This document shows, piece after piece, positions 50,538-59,782 of a DNA stretch of 64,000 bases. This DNA is from Terriglobia bacterium. GTDB lineage: Bacteria > Acidobacteriota > Terriglobia > Terriglobales > Acidobacteriaceae. The DNA is taken from NCBI GenBank assembly GCA_020073645.1, contig JAIQET010000006.1, positions 1-64,000 on the forward strand, written 5' to 3'. The notes under the pieces were generated by a model. That model did not search any database. It had not been told where the DNA came from and worked only from the letters and a program-made list of their open reading frames with translations. Both the position numbers and the translations under genes were made by a program. Position 1 is the first letter of the stretch, and every line of letters starts with the position of its first letter.

Positions 50538-51773
50538 ATGCACGGTGTAGCAGTTACCCTCCTCAGCGAGGATCGCGAACGTCTTTCGGTGCTCCAGCAG
50601 CGCCTGGAAGGCACCCAGATGGGCCGCACCGTCTTTGCCCATCTTGGCTTTCCCACGGGCCCCACCGACCCCGTGTTGCGCCAGATTCAGGATGTTCGCT
50701 CCGAAGTGGTTCTGGTGGATATTGATCCGCAGAACGTCCAGCGCGCCATTCATGCCATCGAATTGATTCACGCCACCACCGACGACATTGGCATTTTTGC
50801 CGCCGGCGAAATGACCCATCCCCCCACCATCGTCTCTGCCATGCGGGCCGGCGCCGGCGAGTACATTGAGCGCAATGCCACTTCGGAAGCCCTGCTTGAG
50901 GCCCTGACCCGTTTTACCTCCTCTCGCAGCAAGATTCGCACTACCTCCGGGCGCGCTCGCGTCTTTACCGTCACCAATGCCAAGGGCGGATCGGGCGCTA
51001 CCACCGCCGCCGTCAACACCGCCATCGCCCTCCAGGAAACTCACGGTGGAACCCTGCTGGTGGACTTCGCTCCCCTGGGCCACGCCGCTCTTCATCTCAA
51101 CGTTCGCCCGACTTTCGGTGTACCCGATGCCCTGCAGAATCTCCACCGCCTCGATGCCTCTTTGCTCGAGGGCTTGATGACCCCCTGCAAGGGCGGGTTG
51201 CAACTGCTGGCAGGGGCGCAGCAGCCCTCCACCTTGGCCCCGACCTCGGCGGAACTCGCTCGGCTTTTCGATCTGCTGGTTTCCCACTTCCGCTACGTGG
51301 TGGTGGACTGCTCCGGCCGCGTGGACCAGACCACGCGTCTGCTGTGCGACTTGTCGAACGCTGTCCTGCTGGTGGCCCAGACCGACGTGGTTTCGCTGTG
51401 GAGCGCCAGCCGCATGCGCACTTTCCTGGACGAAGGCGCCGGCCGTGACCGCGTCCGCCTGGTGCTGAACCGTTACAAGAAAATTCCCGGCTTCAGCGAG
51501 GACGACGTCGAGAAGGCTACCAACTGCAAGCTCCTGTGGAAGCTGCCCAACAGCTATCAGTTAGTCTCGCCCGCCATCGACAAGGGATCGCCCGTCGCCT
51601 TCCACGACAGCCAGGACATCGGCCGTTCCTTCCGCTCCCTGGCCGCCATGCTGGCCGAAGCTTCCATCACCGCCGAAGGCTCGCTGGACCTGGTGTACAC
51701 CCACGATAAGGCGGATTCCAAGAAGAAGGCATCCGGCAGCCTGCTCATCTCCCCCCTGCGCGCCGGCCAGTAA
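50538..51773 (+). CDS. CpaE/TadZ-like pilus-localisation ATPase
   Basis: 411 residues. An N-terminal atypical receiver-like domain (about 1-125; VVLVDIDPQNVQRAIHAIE) is followed by a MinD/ParA-like domain with the deviant Walker A NAKGGSGATTAAVN, LLVDFAPLGHAALHLN and YVVVDCSGRVDQ. This is the CpaE/TadZ layout, which places Flp/Tad pilus machinery at the pole. No other tad/cpa genes are in the window. The last 64 codons are duplicated at 55964-56155 with only four base differences. Confidence 0.9.
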   Translation: MHGVAVTLLSEDRERLSVLQQRLEGTQMGRTVFAHLGFPTGPTDPVLRQIQDVRSEVVLVDIDPQNVQRAIHAIELIHATTDDIGIFAAGEMTHPPTIVSAMRAGAGEYIERNATSEALLEALTRFTSSRSKIRTTSGRARVFTVTNAKGGSGATTAAVNTAIALQETHGGTLLVDFAPLGHAALHLNVRPTFGVPDALQNLHRLDASLLEGLMTPCKGGLQLLAGAQQPSTLAPTSAELARLFDLLVSHFRYVVVDCSGRVDQTTRLLCDLSNAVLLVAQTDVVSLWSASRMRTFLDEGAGRDRVRLVLNRYKKIPGFSEDDVEKATNCKLLWKLPNSYQLVSPAIDKGSPVAFHDSQDIGRSFRSLAAMLAEASITAEGSLDLVYTHDKADSKKKASGSLLISPLRAGQ

Positions 51774-52319
51774 GAAGCTGTCACCCTGTCCGGCACAACA
51801 TCCCCGAAGTGCGACTGGCCGAGCAGTTCCCTTTTAGTGTCCGGCGGCAGCCAGCGATAACCTCTGTTGTTGTCTGTTTCTGTTCCCCCGAACCCAGAAT
51901 CCCAAAAGGGGACGCTCTCACTCCCGGGCGTGACCGCAGTCACAATCCGCGACACGCAAACCAGCATAGGATGCCGATAAGCGCATCCCCAGCGCCACCT
52001 TTTCTAGCATAAGAACGTCGGCCGCGAAGCGTACTTAGATTTGAGGTGTCTTTGGGCCGGATCACACAAGCACGATTTCCTGAGCGGGGCGAATGGAAAG
52101 TCCGCGGCATGCGGCACGCACCTCTCAATCGAAAGCATGTTTCGCAACTCAGCGGAGCCACAATTCTCGTGGCCCTCGCACTCCTAAGACTGTAGATAAG
52201 ACTTAAGACTGTAGACCGTCACGAAACAGGTTCTGGTTTCCTCGTAACCGCCTAAGGCCAGCCTGAAGACTGGTAGGGCTCGAACGCTAGCACGTGAGAA
52301 CCTAGAAACGAGGCATTGC
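51774..52319. other. long leader/intergenic region before protease 1
   Basis: 546 bases with no gene. It contains a Crp-type promoter (separate entry) and ends in a leader with a GGCCAGC-x8-CTGG hairpin and GCTAGCACGTGAGAACC. The corresponding region before protease 2 (56156-56634) is homologous, with the same order of elements, as expected from the duplication. Confidence 0.55.
51930..51972 (+). promoter_or_regulatory. Crp-type site with class II promoter for protease 1
   Basis: GTGACCGCAGTCAC (51930-51943) and a -10 box TAGGAT at 51967-51972; the predicted start near 51979 puts the palindrome centre at about -42. The paralogous promoter at 56296 keeps this geometry although surrounding bases differ. 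Confidence 0.6.
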
Positions 52320-55300
52320 ATGAGATCACTTCGAACTACCGCATCCGCACTCACCCTTTTGCTCATCATCACACTGTCTGCCTCTCTATCCGCACAGGTT
52401 ACGAAACGGGGCAGCGCCACCGATCTGAACACGCACAAGTTCCAGCCCCAAGGGATGTCCACCCAGGCCCGCAGCACTCCATCTGCGAAACCGGCCACCA
52501 TCAGTCCCAGCGCTCTTCAGCAGATCAACGCGCTGCTGCTGGACAAGAAACAACGTACCCCCACACAAGCCAAGATCAGCTCTCGCGTTCTCTACACTTC
52601 TAGGATGCTGCAAGGACTTCCGGCTGCGATCGGCGTCCCCTATCTGCGGTCGGGTCTCGAGCTCGATGCCCACAACAATCTGTACCTGGACATCACGGCA
52701 CGGGTCACGGATGGTCTTTTGAAACAACTTCGTGCCATGGGCGTCCGGATTATCCGTTCCAGCCCCCGCAGCATTCGGGCGTTCGTGCCCCCGTACCAGG
52801 TCGAGTCCGTAGCCAGCTTGCCTGGTGTCATCTTCATACAGCCCAGACAGCAGGCGATGACCCAGGAGGCGATGAGCCATCGGTCGACGAAAGGTTCCGG
52901 GCCTGCCGTGGTGCAGCAATTGCCTCCTGGCTTCGCCCAGCGGGCTGCCACGGTCCGGCAAAAACTGTCACATGCCCTCACTAACGGCAAACTGTCGCGG
53001 CCGCTCACCAATGGCACCGGACAGGGCAGCGTGACCACCGAAGGTGACGCAACCCATCGGGCCGCCGATGCGCGCAGCGCCTTTGGCGTCAACGGAGCTG
53101 GCCTTAATATCGGCGTTCTTTCCGACGGGGCTAGCAGCCTCGCTGCCAGCCAGGCCACGGGCGATTTGCCCCCAACCTGTCCGGCAGGCCCGCCTTGTGT
53201 AACCGTGCTCCCCGGACAGACCGGCAGTGGTGACGAGGGCACAGCCATGATGGAGATCATCCATGACCTGGCTCCGGGTGCAAATCTCTTCTTCGCCACC
53301 GCATTCAACGGGATCGACAGCTTCGCCCAGAACATCCGCGACCTGCGTACGGCGGGCTGCGACATTATCGTGGACGATGTCTTTTACTTTGTCGAAACCC
53401 CCTTCCAGGACGGGCAAGCCCCGAGCGTGGTTTCCGACACCGACGGCGGTGTCGTAATTCAAGCCGTCAACGACGTTACCGCCGACGGTGCCATGTACTT
53501 CTCCTCCGCGGGGAACCAGGGCAACCTGGATGACGCCTTCTCCGGTACATTCGAAGGCGACTTCGTCGACGCCGGCCCCAATCCCCTGCTCCCGGGGGGC
53601 ACGGTTGCCATGTTCGGCACCAACCCGTTTGACACCATCACCTTCGATGGTGGAAACCCGTTCTTCCTGTTCTGGGCCGATCCGCTGGGCGGCTCCGCCA
53701 ACGATTACGACCTCTTCATTCTGGATTCCACGGGAACCACCATTCTGGATGCATCCACTGATCTTCAGGACGGAACCCAGGATCCGATTGAAGCGGTGTT
53801 CGACGAGCCTGCGGGCAACCTCGTGGTTGTTTTCAAGGTCACGGGAGCTGCGGATCGCTTCTTCCACTTGGACACCTTTGGCGGAGCTTTAGAGGTTGTG
53901 ACCGCCGGACAAACCCACGGCCATTCGTCCGCGGCTGCGGCCTTCTCTGTTGCCGCTACGCCCGCCTTCCTGGCCATTGCTCCCGGCTTCCCCACGGGGC
54001 CGTTTCCCAACCCATTCAACGCTGCCAACGTCGTAGAGCCCTACAGCTCTGACGGGCCACGGCAGATTTTCTTCGAGGCCGATGGCACACCCATTACTCC
54101 CGGCAATTTCTCCTCCACCGGGGGCCTAATCCGCCAGAAGCCGGACGTCACCGCTGCGGATGGCGTTTCGGTGACCGGAGTAGGCGGCTTCCCAAGCCCG
54201 TTCTACGGTACTTCGGCCGCCGCCCCCCATGCCGCCGCGATTGCCGGCTTGGTCAAGTCGGCCGTGCCCACTCTGACCAACGACCAGGTCAGGACCGCGC
54301 TCACCAGCACTGCCGTTGACATTGAGGCTGCAGGCGTGGACCGCGACTCCGGCGCCGGGATCGTCGATGCGTTCGAAGCTGTTCACTCGGTGGCTCCATC
54401 TGGGTTCGCCAATCCCGAGCTTGGCAATATCACCGCCACGGAAACCTCAGGCAATGGTGATGGCGCGATTGAAGCCGGCGAAGCAGCCAACCTCACTATT
54501 GAACTCAAGAACACCGCCGGGGCCGCGGACGCAACCGGTATCACCGCCACGCTGACCACGGCCACGCCTGGCGTGACCATCACGCAAGGCACCTCAGCCT
54601 ATCCCGACCTGCCGGCGGGCACCGGTATCGCCACCAACACCACTCCCTTCGCATTTTCGATCGTATTCAACGCAGCCTGCGGTCTGACGATCGACTTCAC
54701 CTTGACCATCAACTACACCGGCGGCCCGAGCCCGAGGGTACTGACCTTCAGCTTGCCCACCGGCCCACCGCCGATCAACGTTCTCACCACGCTGGATACG
54801 ACAGCGCCGACTCCGGTTACGGGCGTAACCACGGCAACCGGGCTGCAAACCGGAAGAATCTTCCGCGACGGCAATCCGAGCGTCTGTGGAGCCCCCAAGA
54901 CCTTTCCGGGGGTTTTCGACCCCACTGGTTCCCGCCAGTACGATGCGTACACCTTCAACGCGTGCCGCAACACGTGCGCCGAGATTACCGTCTCTAACCA
55001 ATCAGTCAACGCGTTCTCACTTTTCAGTGCTGCGTATTCCCCCAGTTTCACTCCTGGCGACACCTCAGTTAACTATGTGGGTGATGCAGGCGTCAGCGGC
55101 GCATCCACAGAGTATGGTATCGACACGCTTGGAGGAACTGCGTACACCGTCGTCATCCATGAACTGGATCCCGGTTTAGGGGTTGGCAGCGTCTACAATG
55201 TGCAGATTTCCGGTTGTTCCATCAGCTGTGATTTCATGGTGCCTGCGACGATTTCCCCGATCACCGTGACCGCGGGCCAGTCGGGAACGCAGCACTTCAC

Positions 55301-55736
55301 CATAACCCCGAGCTCGTCGTTCGATGTGCCCATCACGTTCACCTGCTCCGGACTGCCGGCGCACTCAAGCTGCTCGTTTAGTCCCGCCAGCGTGACTCCG
55401 GGCAGCAGCATGGCCGACGTAGCGGTGACCATAGACACGACCGCGCCCATGCGGGCGCAACTAGGGCAGCGAAACGCCCCGATTTACGCCCTATGGCTGC
55501 CCTTCGGCGGCCTGGGTCTGATCACTATGGCTGGTGTTGGGACCCGCAAGCGTAGCCGCAAGGTCCTGATCGCCCTCGCGCTGCTACTGTTGATCCCGAC
55601 GCTGCTCGCGATTGTCAGCTGCGGCTCAAGCGCGAGGCTCGTGAACGGCACACCACCCGGCACCTACAACGTAACGGTCACGTCCACATCCGGCGCCGCC
55701 GTTCATAATTCGTCCCTCTCGCTAACTGTGCAGTAA
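52320..55736 (+). CDS. subtilase/sedolisin-like exoprotease 1 (D-E-N-S site) with C-terminal Ig/TM module
   Basis: 1138 residues with signal peptide (ALTLLLIITLSASLSAQ). A propeptide-like domain (about 75-185) precedes the catalytic domain: D269 in IGVLSDGAS, then D305-E306 in GDEGTAMMEIIHDLAPGAN where ordinary subtilases have HGT, N399 in SSAGN (oxyanion) and S632 in YGTSAAAPHAA. Glu in place of His recalls sedolisins (S53). After it come a CARDB-like domain (about 690-830), a PPC-like region and a final Ig-type domain interrupted by two membrane helices. Monocistronic, with its own Crp-type promoter and terminator. Confidence 0.88.
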   Translation: MRSLRTTASALTLLLIITLSASLSAQVTKRGSATDLNTHKFQPQGMSTQARSTPSAKPATISPSALQQINALLLDKKQRTPTQAKISSRVLYTSRMLQGLPAAIGVPYLRSGLELDAHNNLYLDITARVTDGLLKQLRAMGVRIIRSSPRSIRAFVPPYQVESVASLPGVIFIQPRQQAMTQEAMSHRSTKGSGPAVVQQLPPGFAQRAATVRQKLSHALTNGKLSRPLTNGTGQGSVTTEGDATHRAADARSAFGVNGAGLNIGVLSDGASSLAASQATGDLPPTCPAGPPCVTVLPGQTGSGDEGTAMMEIIHDLAPGANLFFATAFNGIDSFAQNIRDLRTAGCDIIVDDVFYFVETPFQDGQAPSVVSDTDGGVVIQAVNDVTADGAMYFSSAGNQGNLDDAFSGTFEGDFVDAGPNPLLPGGTVAMFGTNPFDTITFDGGNPFFLFWADPLGGSANDYDLFILDSTGTTILDASTDLQDGTQDPIEAVFDEPAGNLVVVFKVTGAADRFFHLDTFGGALEVVTAGQTHGHSSAAAAFSVAATPAFLAIAPGFPTGPFPNPFNAANVVEPYSSDGPRQIFFEADGTPITPGNFSSTGGLIRQKPDVTAADGVSVTGVGGFPSPFYGTSAAAPHAAAIAGLVKSAVPTLTNDQVRTALTSTAVDIEAAGVDRDSGAGIVDAFEAVHSVAPSGFANPELGNITATETSGNGDGAIEAGEAANLTIELKNTAGAADATGITATLTTATPGVTITQGTSAYPDLPAGTGIATNTTPFAFSIVFNAACGLTIDFTLTINYTGGPSPRVLTFSLPTGPPPINVLTTLDTTAPTPVTGVTTATGLQTGRIFRDGNPSVCGAPKTFPGVFDPTGSRQYDAYTFNACRNTCAEITVSNQSVNAFSLFSAAYSPSFTPGDTSVNYVGDAGVSGASTEYGIDTLGGTAYTVVIHELDPGLGVGSVYNVQISGCSISCDFMVPATISPITVTAGQSGTQHFTITPSSSFDVPITFTCSGLPAHSSCSFSPASVTPGSSMADVAVTIDTTAPMRAQLGQRNAPIYALWLPFGGLGLITMAGVGTRKRSRKVLIALALLLLIPTLLAIVSCGSSARLVNGTPPGTYNVTVTSTSGAAVHNSSLSLTVQ

Positions 55737-55754
55737 GCACACCAAGCCCGTAGG

Positions 55755-55786
55755 AAACGGGGCGGTCGCCAAGACCGCCCCGTTTT
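55755..55786 (+). terminator. intrinsic terminator after protease 1
   Basis: Perfect 13-bp stem AAACGGGGCGGTC / GACCGCCCCGTTT with loop GCCAA, followed by a T. Protease 2 has a homologous terminator at 59191. Confidence 0.9.
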
Positions 55787-55851
55787 GCATGTCTAGCTGT
55801 GCACACAACCAGGACCCGACCAGCAGAGTTCGCTGCAAGGCGACAGGTGCA

Positions 55852-55965
55852 GATCGTCGAGCTAATCAGTTCGTGATTGCTTCCGCGGCCGGCCGGATGG
55901 ACTTGACCTGCTGCCATCCTGCTATCTCTTCCAGTTTGTCCAGTGCAAGGTAGGCAAGAATCGAA
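55852..55965 (-). pseudogene. 3' remnant of the propeptide-like gene (duplication scar)
   Basis: This stretch aligns without gaps to 59292-59405, the 3' end of the intact propeptide-like gene, with about 16 differences in 114 bases. It breaks off at AAGAATCGAA and continues directly with cpaE-derived sequence. It encodes no complete protein. Confidence 0.8.
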
Positions 55966-56155
55966 GGGATCGCCCGTCGCCTTCCACGAGAGCCAGGACA
56001 TCGGCCGTTCCTTCCGCTCCTTGGCCGCCATGCTGGCCGAAGTTTCCATCACCGCCGAAGGCTCGCTGGACCTGGTGTACACCTACGATAAGGCGGATTC
56101 CAAGAAGAAGGCATCCGGCAGCCTGCTCATCTCCCCCCTGCGCGCCGGCCAGTAA
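55964..56155 (+). pseudogene. duplicated 3' fragment of the cpaE-like gene
   Basis: 64 codons plus stop identical in frame to 51582-51773 except four bases (about 98%). An open frame from GTG 55943 would give 70 residues starting in the propeptide remnant, but it has no ATPase motifs and no evident ribosome site. It shows where a tandem copy of the segment cpaE-end/protease/propeptide gene was joined. Confidence 0.85.
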
Positions 56156-56634
56156 GAAGCGGTGCCGTTCTCCTGCACAATACTCCCGTAACGCCTGCGG
56201 TCGAGTATTTGCAAGCGCGTCCGGCGATGACATCTGTTGTCTGTTTCCGCTCCACCGAACCGCATCCCAAGAAGGGAACGCTCTCACCGCTCGCTGTGAC
56301 GCCGGTCACAATCCGTGACACCCAACTGGGCTTAGCATGGTTCGACGCATCCCCCAGCACCAGGTTTCCACTATGTTTTCTTTGATCGCGAAGCGTACCC
56401 CGGTGATACAATCGCGGGCACCCGAGGAGGGCGAATGAAAAAGCCCGCGGTTCCCCCGGCCATCGCGTCTCATTCGCAAACAGGTTTTGCTACTCAGCGG
56501 AGCCACCGTTCTTTTGCGGCTCACACTCCCAAGACGTTTCACAACAGTTTCCAGTTCCCTCGCTGTTGATTGAGGCCAGTTTCAAGACTGGCGGGCCCGA
56601 ACGTCAGCACGTGAATTTAAAAACGAGGTGTTCC
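56156..56634. other. intergenic leader before protease 2
   Basis: Homologous to 51774-52319 in patches (TCTGTTGTCTGTTTC, GTCACAATCCG, GACTGGCGGGC, CAGCACGTGA). It holds a Crp-type promoter and no gene. Confidence 0.55.
56296..56338 (+). promoter_or_regulatory. Crp-type site with class II promoter for protease 2
   Basis: TGTGACGCCGGTCACA (around 56295-56310) is an almost ideal CRP box; the core GTGA-N6-TCAC is 56296-56309. The -10 box TAGCAT at 56333-56338 predicts a start near 56345, with the palindrome centred near -42. Confidence 0.65.
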
Positions 56635-59172
56635 ATGAGATCACGTCGATTTACCGCATCCACACTCGCCCTTCTGCTCATCTTCACACTGTCTGCCTCT
56701 CTATCCGCCCAGGTTACGAGACGGGCCAGTGGTACCGATTTCAACACGCATAGGTTCCAGCCCCAGGGCATGTCCATTCCGGCTCGCAATACATCTGGGA
56801 AACCGGTCACTATCAGCACCACCGCTTTTCAGCAGATCAACGCACTGGAGCTGGACAAGATACAACGTACTCGCACCCAAGCCAAGATCAGCTCCCGCGT
56901 TCTCTACACTTCGAGGATGCTGCAGGGACTTCCGGCCGCGATCGGCGTCCAATACCTGCGGACGGGCCTTGAACTCGATAACCAAAACAATATTTTTGTA
57001 GACATCAAGGCACACGTCACCGACAACCTGCTGAAGCAACTTAACGCTGCGGGCGTCCGCGTCATCCGTTCCAACGCGGCTTATCGCACCATTCGGGCGT
57101 TTGTTCCCCCGTCCAGTGTTGAGACTATCGCCAGCCTCCCGGACGTGATCTTCATACAGCCCAGACAGGAGGCGATGACCCAGGGTCAGGCCGCGGCTTC
57201 CCGGGCTGCTGCCGCGCAGCGCTTATCTCCAGGCTTCGCCCAGCGGGCTGCCAGCGTCCGGGCAAAACTGTCTCGTGTCCTCAAGAACGGCACCGGGCAG
57301 GGCAGCGTGACCAGCGAAGGTGACGCGACTCATCGGACCGCGGATGGGCGCGCGACCTTTGGCGTCACTGGAGCCGGCATGAACATCGGCGTGCTTTCCG
57401 ACGGCGTCGATCACCTCGCTGATAGCCAGGCTACAGGCGATCTGGGTACTGTCACCATACTGCCAGGACAGGGCGGTGCCGGTGACGAGGGCACGGCCAT
57501 GCTGGAAATCATCCACGACCTGGCTCCGGATGCGAATCTCTTCTTTGCCACCGCATTCAACGGCATCGACAGTTTCGCGCAAAACATCGACGACCTGCGT
57601 TTCGTCGAAGGCTGCGACATCATCGTGGACGACGTTTTTTACTTTGTCGAAACTCCCTTCCAGGACGGGCAGGATCCCAGCATCGTGTCCGACACCGATG
57701 GCGGAGTTGTCATCCAGGCCGTCAACGATGTCACCGCCGACGGCGCCATGTACTTCTCCTCCGCGGGCAACGCAGGCAACTTTGACGACAACTTCTCCAG
57801 TTCCATCGAAACCGACTTTGTCAATGGCGGTACCAATCCCCTGGTCCCCGGGGGCAATCTGGCCCTGTTCGGCACCAACCAGTTTGACACCATCACCTTT
57901 GATGGCTTCGCGCTCTTCCTGTGGTGGACCGATCCGCTGGGCGGCTCCGCCAACGATTACGACCTGTTCGTGCTGGATTCCACGGGCACAGTTGTCTTGG
58001 ATTCATCCACTGACGTTCAAGACGGAACCCAGGATCCGATTGAAGCGACGGCAGAGGATGCTACCGGCGACCTCGCCGTTGTTTTACAGCTGACGGGAGC
58101 CGCCGACCGGTTCTTCCACCTGGACACCATTCAGGGAGCTATGGAACTTACCTCCCCCGGACAAGTGCACGGCCATGCGGGCGCCGCCCAGGCATTCGCC
58201 GTTGCCGCCACCCCGGCCGCTGCGGCTATCGGTACCGGCTTCCCGTCGGGGCCATTTCCCAACCCATTCAACTCTACCAACGTCGTCGAGCCCTACAGCT
58301 CTGACGGGCCGCGGCAGATTTTCTTCCAGGCTGATGGCACCCCCATCACTCCCGGAGATTTCTCCTCCACCGGAGGCCTGATCCGCCAGAAGCCGGACGT
58401 CACCGCTGCGGACGGCGTATCGGTGACCGGAGCCGGGGGTTTCCCCACCCCGTTCTACGGCACCTCGGCCGCTGCTCCCCATGCGGCTGCCATCGCCGCT
58501 CTGCTCAAGACCTCCGTCCCCAGCGTGGTCCAGACCAATGACGATGTCAGGACCGCGCTCACCAGCAGCGCCATTGACATTGAGGGAGCGGGCGTGGACC
58601 GCGACTCCGGCGCCGGCATCCTCGATGGGTTCGCAGCGCTTAACATCTTCAAGGACTTCATCCTTCCCCTCACCCTTTCCGATGAAACGGTGACGGCGGG
58701 CCAGTCAACCACGCAGGACATCACCATCGACGTCAAAGGGTCGTGGGATACTCCCATCACCTTCGCCTGTTCCGGCCTTCCCGACAAGTCCAGCTGCACC
58801 TTCACGCCTTCCGGCGTGACCCCAGGCGCCAGCTCTGCTGTCGTGAGCGTAGAAGTCAGCACCACTGCCCCCATGAGGGCGTCGCTACAGCAGCCGCAAG
58901 GCCTGATCTATGCCACATGGCTGTCCTTCGGTGGCTTGGGACTGGTCGGCATGGTGGGCGTTGGAACCCGCAAGCGTAGCCGCAAGGCTCTCATAGCCCT
59001 CGCGCTGCTCCTGTTGATTCCGATGCTGCTTACCATCGTCGGTTGCGACAACGGCGGGCGTGTCATCCCGGGCACTCCCACTGGCACATCAGCCATAACC
59101 GTGACGGCCACCGCCGGATCCGGAACCGGGGTCTTGTCTCACACCACTACCTTCAACCTTACTGTGCAGTAA
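56635..59172 (+). CDS. subtilase/sedolisin-like exoprotease 2 (D-E-N-S site) with C-terminal Ig/TM module
   Basis: 845 residues from ATG 56635, whose position equals that of protease 1. Signal peptide, propeptide-like domain and catalytic domain match protease 1: D256, D284-E285 (GDEGTAMLEIIHDLAP), N379 and S611 (YGTSAAAPHAA). It lacks the roughly 290 residues of CARDB-like and PPC-like sequence present in copy 1 and goes directly into the final Ig/membrane module (GLPDKSSCTFTPSG, MRKRSRK-like GTRKRSRKALIALALLLL). A secreted or surface-anchored peptidase is inferred; activity depends on the unusual Glu. Confidence 0.88.
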   Translation: MRSRRFTASTLALLLIFTLSASLSAQVTRRASGTDFNTHRFQPQGMSIPARNTSGKPVTISTTAFQQINALELDKIQRTRTQAKISSRVLYTSRMLQGLPAAIGVQYLRTGLELDNQNNIFVDIKAHVTDNLLKQLNAAGVRVIRSNAAYRTIRAFVPPSSVETIASLPDVIFIQPRQEAMTQGQAAASRAAAAQRLSPGFAQRAASVRAKLSRVLKNGTGQGSVTSEGDATHRTADGRATFGVTGAGMNIGVLSDGVDHLADSQATGDLGTVTILPGQGGAGDEGTAMLEIIHDLAPDANLFFATAFNGIDSFAQNIDDLRFVEGCDIIVDDVFYFVETPFQDGQDPSIVSDTDGGVVIQAVNDVTADGAMYFSSAGNAGNFDDNFSSSIETDFVNGGTNPLVPGGNLALFGTNQFDTITFDGFALFLWWTDPLGGSANDYDLFVLDSTGTVVLDSSTDVQDGTQDPIEATAEDATGDLAVVLQLTGAADRFFHLDTIQGAMELTSPGQVHGHAGAAQAFAVAATPAAAAIGTGFPSGPFPNPFNSTNVVEPYSSDGPRQIFFQADGTPITPGDFSSTGGLIRQKPDVTAADGVSVTGAGGFPTPFYGTSAAAPHAAAIAALLKTSVPSVVQTNDDVRTALTSSAIDIEGAGVDRDSGAGILDGFAALNIFKDFILPLTLSDETVTAGQSTTQDITIDVKGSWDTPITFACSGLPDKSSCTFTPSGVTPGASSAVVSVEVSTTAPMRASLQQPQGLIYATWLSFGGLGLVGMVGVGTRKRSRKALIALALLLLIPMLLTIVGCDNGGRVIPGTPTGTSAITVTATAGSGTGVLSHTTTFNLTVQ

Positions 59173-59190: not shown

Positions 59191-59221
59191 AACGGGGCGG
59201 TCGAAAGACTGCCCCGTTTTT
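59191..59221 (+). terminator. intrinsic terminator after protease 2
   Basis: AACGGGGCGGTC-GAAA-GACTGCCCCGTT with one G-T pair and a T run; it lies before the convergent propeptide-like gene. Confidence 0.85.
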
Positions 59222-59305: not shown

Positions 59306-59782
59306 TCAGTTCGTCATTGCTTCCGCAGCCGGCCGGATGGCCTTGACCTGCCGCAATCCTGCAATCTTTTCCAGTTTCTCCAGCGGGACGTAGGCAAGAA
59401 TCGAATTGTAGCGTTCGGAATGGGAGACCACCTTACCTCCCATCTTGCCGACGCACGCGATAAGTTTGTCCGTCACTTTGCCCCGGATATCCACAAAGAC
59501 TCGGCCCTCGCTATCCGTTCGCAGCCGCGGTTTCGCACGCAACGGAGTCTTCGGTGGATACAGGGCGCAGAGTAACTGCGAGGAGATTTTCCGCTGCGCC
59601 GGTGTCCGTGCGGCCTTATCGAGGCACGGCGACTTCACCGTCGCGGCATTCGATCCTGTCTCCGGAACACCCTGCCCGCCAGCCATCCCACCGCTGCTCC
59701 CGCTCTGAGCATTCATCGTGGATACAAGGACGGCGACAATGAGAAGCCAGCCGCCATTTCCGAATCTCGATGCCTGAGGCAT
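59306..59782 (-). CDS. stand-alone secreted propeptide-like protein (possible protease inhibitor/chaperone)
   Basis: The ATG at 59782 follows GGGGGAATC; 158 residues with a signal peptide (GGWLLIVAVLVSTMNAQS). The mature part (about 60-158) aligns with the propeptide of both neighbouring proteases: RTPAQRKISSQLL against RTPTQAKISSRVL, GRVFVDIRGKVTDKLI against NLYLDITARVTDGLL, ILAYVPLEKLEKIAGL against IRAFVPPYQVESVASL, and IRPAAEAMT against IQPRQQAMT. There is no catalytic domain. By analogy with I9-type propeptides it could fold or inhibit the proteases in trans. It is convergent with protease 2. Confidence 0.75.
   Translation of the reverse strand: MPQASRFGNGGWLLIVAVLVSTMNAQSGSSGGMAGGQGVPETGSNAATVKSPCLDKAARTPAQRKISSQLLCALYPPKTPLRAKPRLRTDSEGRVFVDIRGKVTDKLIACVGKMGGKVVSHSERYNSILAYVPLEKLEKIAGLRQVKAIRPAAEAMTN

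Follow-up and report, generated by a model that had tools for sequence, protein, structure and literature searches.

A stand-alone gene for a probably secreted propeptide beside Glu-type proteases in Acidobacteriota, a likely trans-acting partner of its neighbours

The first 64,000 nucleotides of contig JAIQET010000006.1, from a soil acidobacterium, were analysed (this whole stretch is called the window below). They contain a small gene at 59306–59782 that encodes only a probable signal peptide and a propeptide-type domain, next to two large proteases in which a glutamate takes the place of the catalytic histidine of subtilases (Glu-type proteases). This stand-alone propeptide probably serves the Glu-type proteases as a dedicated inhibitor or chaperone. 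Judged from homology, gene neighbourhood and predicted fold, we consider it reasonably likely that the protein is secreted, belongs to the I9 type and has the adjacent enzymes as its targets in trans, and the role that we favour is that of a diffusible inhibitor.

The stand-alone gene and its protein

The gene has an intact open reading frame (ORF) on the reverse strand, with its ATG at 59782 and a ribosome-binding-like run, GGGGGG, close upstream. It is a separate gene with no attached catalytic domain, and the same is true of its orthologues. The features of the gene are the following.

59306–59782, reverse strand: stand-alone propeptide gene, intact ORF of 158 amino acids (aa); the orthologue in the congener G049 (JAIQFP010000006) is 72–73% identical.
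59708–59782, reverse strand: probable signal peptide, residues 1–25, judged by eye from the sequence; hydrophobic WLLIVAVLVSTM, then NAQ; disordered in the AlphaFold2 (AF2) model.
59567–59626, reverse strand: Cys53 to Cys72, a candidate disulfide; present in all three stand-alones of family f1 and in 0 of 61 fused propeptides.
59309–59512, reverse strand: segment with a confident predicted fold; the predicted local distance difference test (pLDDT) is >90 for most of residues 91–150, and the alignment to subtilisin propeptides reaches residue 158.

When its own genome is searched, the domain proves homologous to residues ~60–184 of both adjoining proteases (E-values 3.6e-12 and 2.6e-10), with 34–35% identity to the propeptides of protease 1 and protease 2; no other relatives were found in that genome apart from a 3' fragment of the gene after protease 1. 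An earlier sequence-only reading of the window had proposed a propeptide-only gene with a secreted product that shares its domain with both neighbours, and had assigned that domain to the propeptide type. Both proposals are supported, with secretion as probable, and the predicted fold described below matches subtilisin propeptides and POIA1. The stand-alones keep positions that are conserved in the family (K in 58/61, A in 60/61, E in 49/61, and others). The window protein ends in EAMTN; fused propeptides have EAMTQ or QAMTQ at this place, followed by a linker and then by the catalytic domain. Stand-alone C-termini at the domain end are AMTN, AMTN, ATTNPR, ATAMTVR and HPVTR. Pfam gave no family up to an E-value of 10 for the stand-alone (P0001) or for the propeptides of its neighbours, and thus no match to Inhibitor_I9.

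The AF2 model of the stand-alone, built from a 6-row alignment, has a disordered N-terminus followed by a core of strand 95–101, helix 105–113, strand 117–122, strand 127–132, helix 134–141 and strand 146–151. Foldseek places subtilisin propeptides at the top (probability 1.00, target template modelling score up to 0.79), with E-values of only 0.03 or worse. VIA-align gives Z-scores of 9.4, 9.2 and 8.6 to the subtilisin propeptides 1scj_B, 2z57_B and 1spb_P, and 8.3 to POIA1 bound to subtilisin (1v5i_B), with the alignment running to the last residue. A search of the PDB sequences with the profile A1 found nothing. For protease 2, a low-confidence model of propeptide plus catalytic domain (4-row alignment, mean pLDDT 31.8) has a propeptide with the same order of secondary structure as the stand-alone.

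Distribution and genomic context

The f1 stand-alones, all from one family, are those of the window (G000), G049 and G032. The others, from G995, G1037, G1044 and G1045, belong to members of a family in another Acidobacteriota class. A first survey with profile A1 recovered only the f1 stand-alones and that of G995, and a renewed search with A4 and A5 added the f97 stand-alones. A Glu-type protease is encoded in 6 of the 7 genomes. In four of these, which represent three different surroundings, the stand-alone gene directly adjoins that of the protease: the two genes are convergent in the window and in G049, the stand-alone lies 167 bp upstream of the protease on the same strand in G032 (where the outer neighbours are, by eye, dnaB-like and alr-like), and it lies 18 bp upstream on the same strand, in an operon-like arrangement, in G1037. 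A survey for adjacent stand-alone propeptides had been suggested as a check, and its outcome is favourable: the gene is again found next to a protease of this family where the rest of the neighbourhood is unrelated, including in a second class. Among 398 genomes of the family, 22 encode the protease and three the stand-alone, all three within the 22; because the genomes are related, no probability is attached to this overlap.

In 59 further genomes with matches, the only extra stand-alone-like frames were those of G502 and G024. In G502 (L044 5268–6897), a decaying protease gene adjoins an intact paralogue and leaves a propeptide-only frame; it was rejected from the clade as a decaying protease, in which an out-of-frame piece of the catalytic domain follows the propeptide frame. 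In G024 (L023 3–2234), a divergent propeptide domain forms the C-terminus of a 270-aa secreted protein beside an NF038122 metalloprotease, and it was set aside as a different lineage in the propeptide tree. In G1086 (L176 3957–8100), a lipoprotein-like stand-alone lies upstream of a Glu-type protease with a single gene between them, and the three share a strand; this stand-alone too is of a different lineage in the tree and was not counted with the clade.

Ancestry and selection

In a tree of 72 propeptides, the seven stand-alones from two classes form one clade (98/86). An approximately unbiased (AU) test, which used an earlier tree, rejected a grouping in which the three f1 stand-alones join the propeptides of the window's and the congener's own proteases (p 0.0007); a grouping with the wider f1 protease clade was not rejected (p 0.099). 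Tyr75 occurs in 7/7 stand-alones of the clade versus 1/61 fused propeptides. Because of the single clade, the AU rejection, and a Cys pair and Tyr75 that are specific to stand-alones, the lineage is old and separate, and no truncated copy of the present neighbours. The ratio of nonsynonymous to synonymous substitution (dN/dS) in the core between the window and G049 is 0.24 (NG86) or 0.18 (YN00), and purifying selection on the stand-alone gene is supported.

The neighbouring proteases

Both proteases lie on the strand opposite to the propeptide gene.

52320–55736, forward strand: protease 1, 1138 aa; signal sequence, propeptide, Glu-type subtilase-like domain, beta domains, invert_tail anchor.
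52494–52871, forward strand: propeptide domain of protease 1, by sequence homology.
56635–59172, forward strand: protease 2, 845 aa from ATG 56635; signal sequence, propeptide, Glu-type subtilase-like domain, invert_tail anchor.
56806–57189, forward strand: propeptide domain of protease 2, by sequence homology.
59191–59220, no strand: hairpin with T-run in the gap where the protease 2 and propeptide genes converge; −27.1 kcal/mol on folding, z −5.3.

The Glu-for-His subtilase-like family, including the window proteases, is conserved across Acidobacteriota. There are 64 non-redundant frames with this catalytic family, of which 62 could be aligned. Glu replaces the subtilase His in 60/62, in agreement with the earlier description of the neighbours as Glu-type, and the subtilase Asp is retained in 59/62, the oxyanion Asn in 60/62 and the Ser in 60/62. 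The Asp-His-Ser triad of S8 is absent from the Glu-type proteases; their Ser half still scores above the cut-off of Pfam PF00082 (Peptidase_S8). The Glu-x-x-x-Asp of the sedolisins (S53) is also absent: the EGTAM motif has no Asp at +4, and there is Asn, not Asp, at the oxyanion position. By their predicted triad, the proteases fit neither S8 nor S53. We take it that a conserved-domain model exists for S53-like bacterial proteins of similar look. Both proteases carry NF058595 invert_tail at the C-terminus (81.6 and 72.3 bits, cut-off 37), as does the G032 protease.

The hairpin at 59191–59220 is likely a terminator shared by the protease 2 and propeptide genes. It was seen by folding; a simple promoter and terminator scan listed no sigma-70-like promoter and no terminator.

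A tandem-duplication junction after protease 1

The sequence-only reading had taken the 3' fragment after protease 1 for the remnant of another copy of the propeptide gene, and concluded that a pair of protease gene and propeptide gene had once been repeated. Two features are involved.

55866–~55965, reverse strand: 3' fragment of the propeptide gene, truncated at birth; ~100 bp, about 85% DNA identity to the full gene as read from the alignment.
55964–56160, forward strand: copy of the 3' end of the CpaE/MinD-like ATPase gene, the right side of the junction; 197 bp, 98% identical to its source at 51582–51778.

The fragment does exist, and is accompanied by a related downstream region and a terminator-like hairpin. 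It is fused directly, at ~55964, to the 197-bp copy from the ATPase gene (cpaE/minD-like) that sits upstream. A decayed full second propeptide gene was rejected on the grounds of this fusion at the breakpoint. The simplest reading is a tandem duplication that ran from within the ATPase gene to within the propeptide gene and left this junction as its breakpoint; the first propeptide copy was therefore never complete, and the proposal of a repeated pair is given up. Divergence is unequal across the junction (98% identity on the ATPase side versus about 85% on the propeptide side), for which gene conversion is one possible cause. In the congener G049 (JAIQFP010000006, L017), the same locus has the order ATPase, short protease, long protease, propeptide, without the fragment. 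The proteases of the window are in the order long, short, swapped relative to the congener (window 52320–59172 versus L017 6550–13149), which fits a duplication followed by a loss.

Comparison with known systems

Stand-alone propeptide inhibitors are an already known kind of protein, and MEROPS I9 includes POIA1 from Pleurotus, the yeast proteinase B inhibitor, SPI-1 from Arabidopsis and TgMIC5 from Toxoplasma. To our knowledge, those that inhibit subtilases are known mainly from eukaryotes. They are propeptide mimics like the protein described here, and POIA1 is among its structural matches (Z 8.3), but the stand-alone of the window is bacterial, has Glu-type partners and lacks a Pfam Inhibitor_I9 match. 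In Plasmodium, SUB1-ProM is a stand-alone subtilisin propeptide-like inhibitor encoded beside subtilase genes (PMC6993865). Here the likeness includes a small secreted propeptide-only gene, the propeptide fold and a protease that keeps its own propeptide; the differences are that SUB1-ProM comes from a eukaryotic parasite, faces a His-type subtilase and has measured inhibition, whereas the stand-alone here is known from sequence and predicted fold. Among bacteria, the clearest parallel found is the protease ASP of Aeromonas sobria, which has a His triad and no propeptide of its own and is served by the external chaperone ORF2 (PMC5638518). ORF2 is likewise encoded by a gene adjoining a subtilase-type protease, acts in trans and has its C-terminus at the active site, but both window proteases carry their own propeptide, which sets them apart from the ORF2 type. 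In Myxococcus, PopD is another separate bacterial partner that restrains a subtilisin-like protease, PopC (PMC6434023). The S53 enzymes share the Glu as catalytic base and the subtilisin-like scaffold, and have an acid four residues after the Glu in a Glu-x-x-x-Asp base/acid peptide (PMC11593635); unlike them, the window proteases keep the subtilase-type Asp, Asn and Ser positions. The new element is a lineage from bacteria that matches no Pfam family and is paired with Glu-for-His enzymes keeping their own propeptide. In the open-licence papers on bacterial stand-alone I9 proteins, no case with Glu-type enzymes was found, as the earlier reading had supposed, which is weak evidence of absence.

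Proposed role and alternatives

The stand-alone would be exported and would then dock on the catalytic domain as a cleaved propeptide does. In the fold alignment its A-M-T-N tail ends where cleaved subtilisin propeptides end, and this tail may fill the active-site cleft as a product-like inhibitor, so that protease activity near the cell would be limited. Because the proteases have an anchoring-type C-terminal tail and the stand-alone has none, it could be a diffusible partner of anchored enzymes. Both proteases come with a propeptide of their own, and for this reason we favour inhibition or holding rather than a role that is essential for folding.

Several observations weigh against this proposal. 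Stand-alone and protease are about 21 kb apart on the same contig in G1044 and on different contigs in G1045, and in G995 no Glu-type protease was detected. The convergent genes of the window are not co-transcribed. Most protease-bearing genomes have no stand-alone, which is therefore not required, and the three-part make-up that was proposed from the window is a local arrangement, as G032 and G1037 have one propeptide and one protease each. Three f97 stand-alones lack both the ...MTN tail and the Cys pair. The propeptide tree has 124 columns and its bootstrap is not fully settled. The structural margin is also small: as unrelated ferredoxin-like folds reach Z about 7.5–8.2 (ribosomal S6 ~7.5), the fold taken alone is modest evidence, and the case is carried by the sequence homology to fused propeptides.

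It is also conceivable, though rather unlikely, that the stand-alone is an external folding chaperone that aids folding or secretion of the protease and inhibits it incidentally, as ORF2 does for ASP. The ORF2 gene adjoins asp, the maturation of ASP requires ORF2, and ORF2 is also an inhibitor of ASP, with a half-maximal inhibitory concentration of 84 nM and its C-terminus at the catalytic site (PMC5638518), and the G1037 and G032 stand-alones likewise lie just upstream of the protease on the same strand. However, ASP has no propeptide whereas the Glu-type proteases keep a well-conserved one, most relatives do without the stand-alone, and the genes in the window are convergent. Slightly less likely again is a secreted propeptide-fold protein no longer aimed at these proteases, which would serve another or foreign protease or a structural role, with adjacency as a relic of its origin. 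G995 with no Glu-type protease detected, the tail loss in three f97 copies and the more distant, domain-fused G024 protein beside its metalloprotease would suit such a protein; the protease in 6/7 genomes of the clade, four times adjacent in reshuffled surroundings, would not, nor would the lack of any other protein with this propeptide type in its own genome. Decay of the kind seen in G502 makes a drifting remnant of a third protease, truncated after the propeptide, thinkable, but it is highly improbable given the dN/dS of 0.18–0.24, the intact orthologues from two classes in one clade, the AU rejection of derivation from the neighbours' propeptides, the Cys pair and Tyr75 specific to stand-alones, and the G049, G032 and G995 copies, none of which is followed by a piece of a catalytic domain.

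Significance

The trans-acting inhibitor that we favour may, as a tentative wider picture, be part of a two-gene extracellular module in Acidobacteriota, in which a Glu-for-His protease with its own propeptide would be restrained in trans by a dedicated and anciently separated stand-alone propeptide, stabilised by a disulfide in one lineage. If true, Glu-type subtilases would have their first described propeptide inhibitor that acts in trans, and proteases with Glu instead of the catalytic His, a type that has been little studied, could be probed with an inhibitor from nature. A conserved bacterial pair of this kind, a protease with its own propeptide plus a second secreted one, would show that the secreted proteolysis of soil bacteria is under control in trans.
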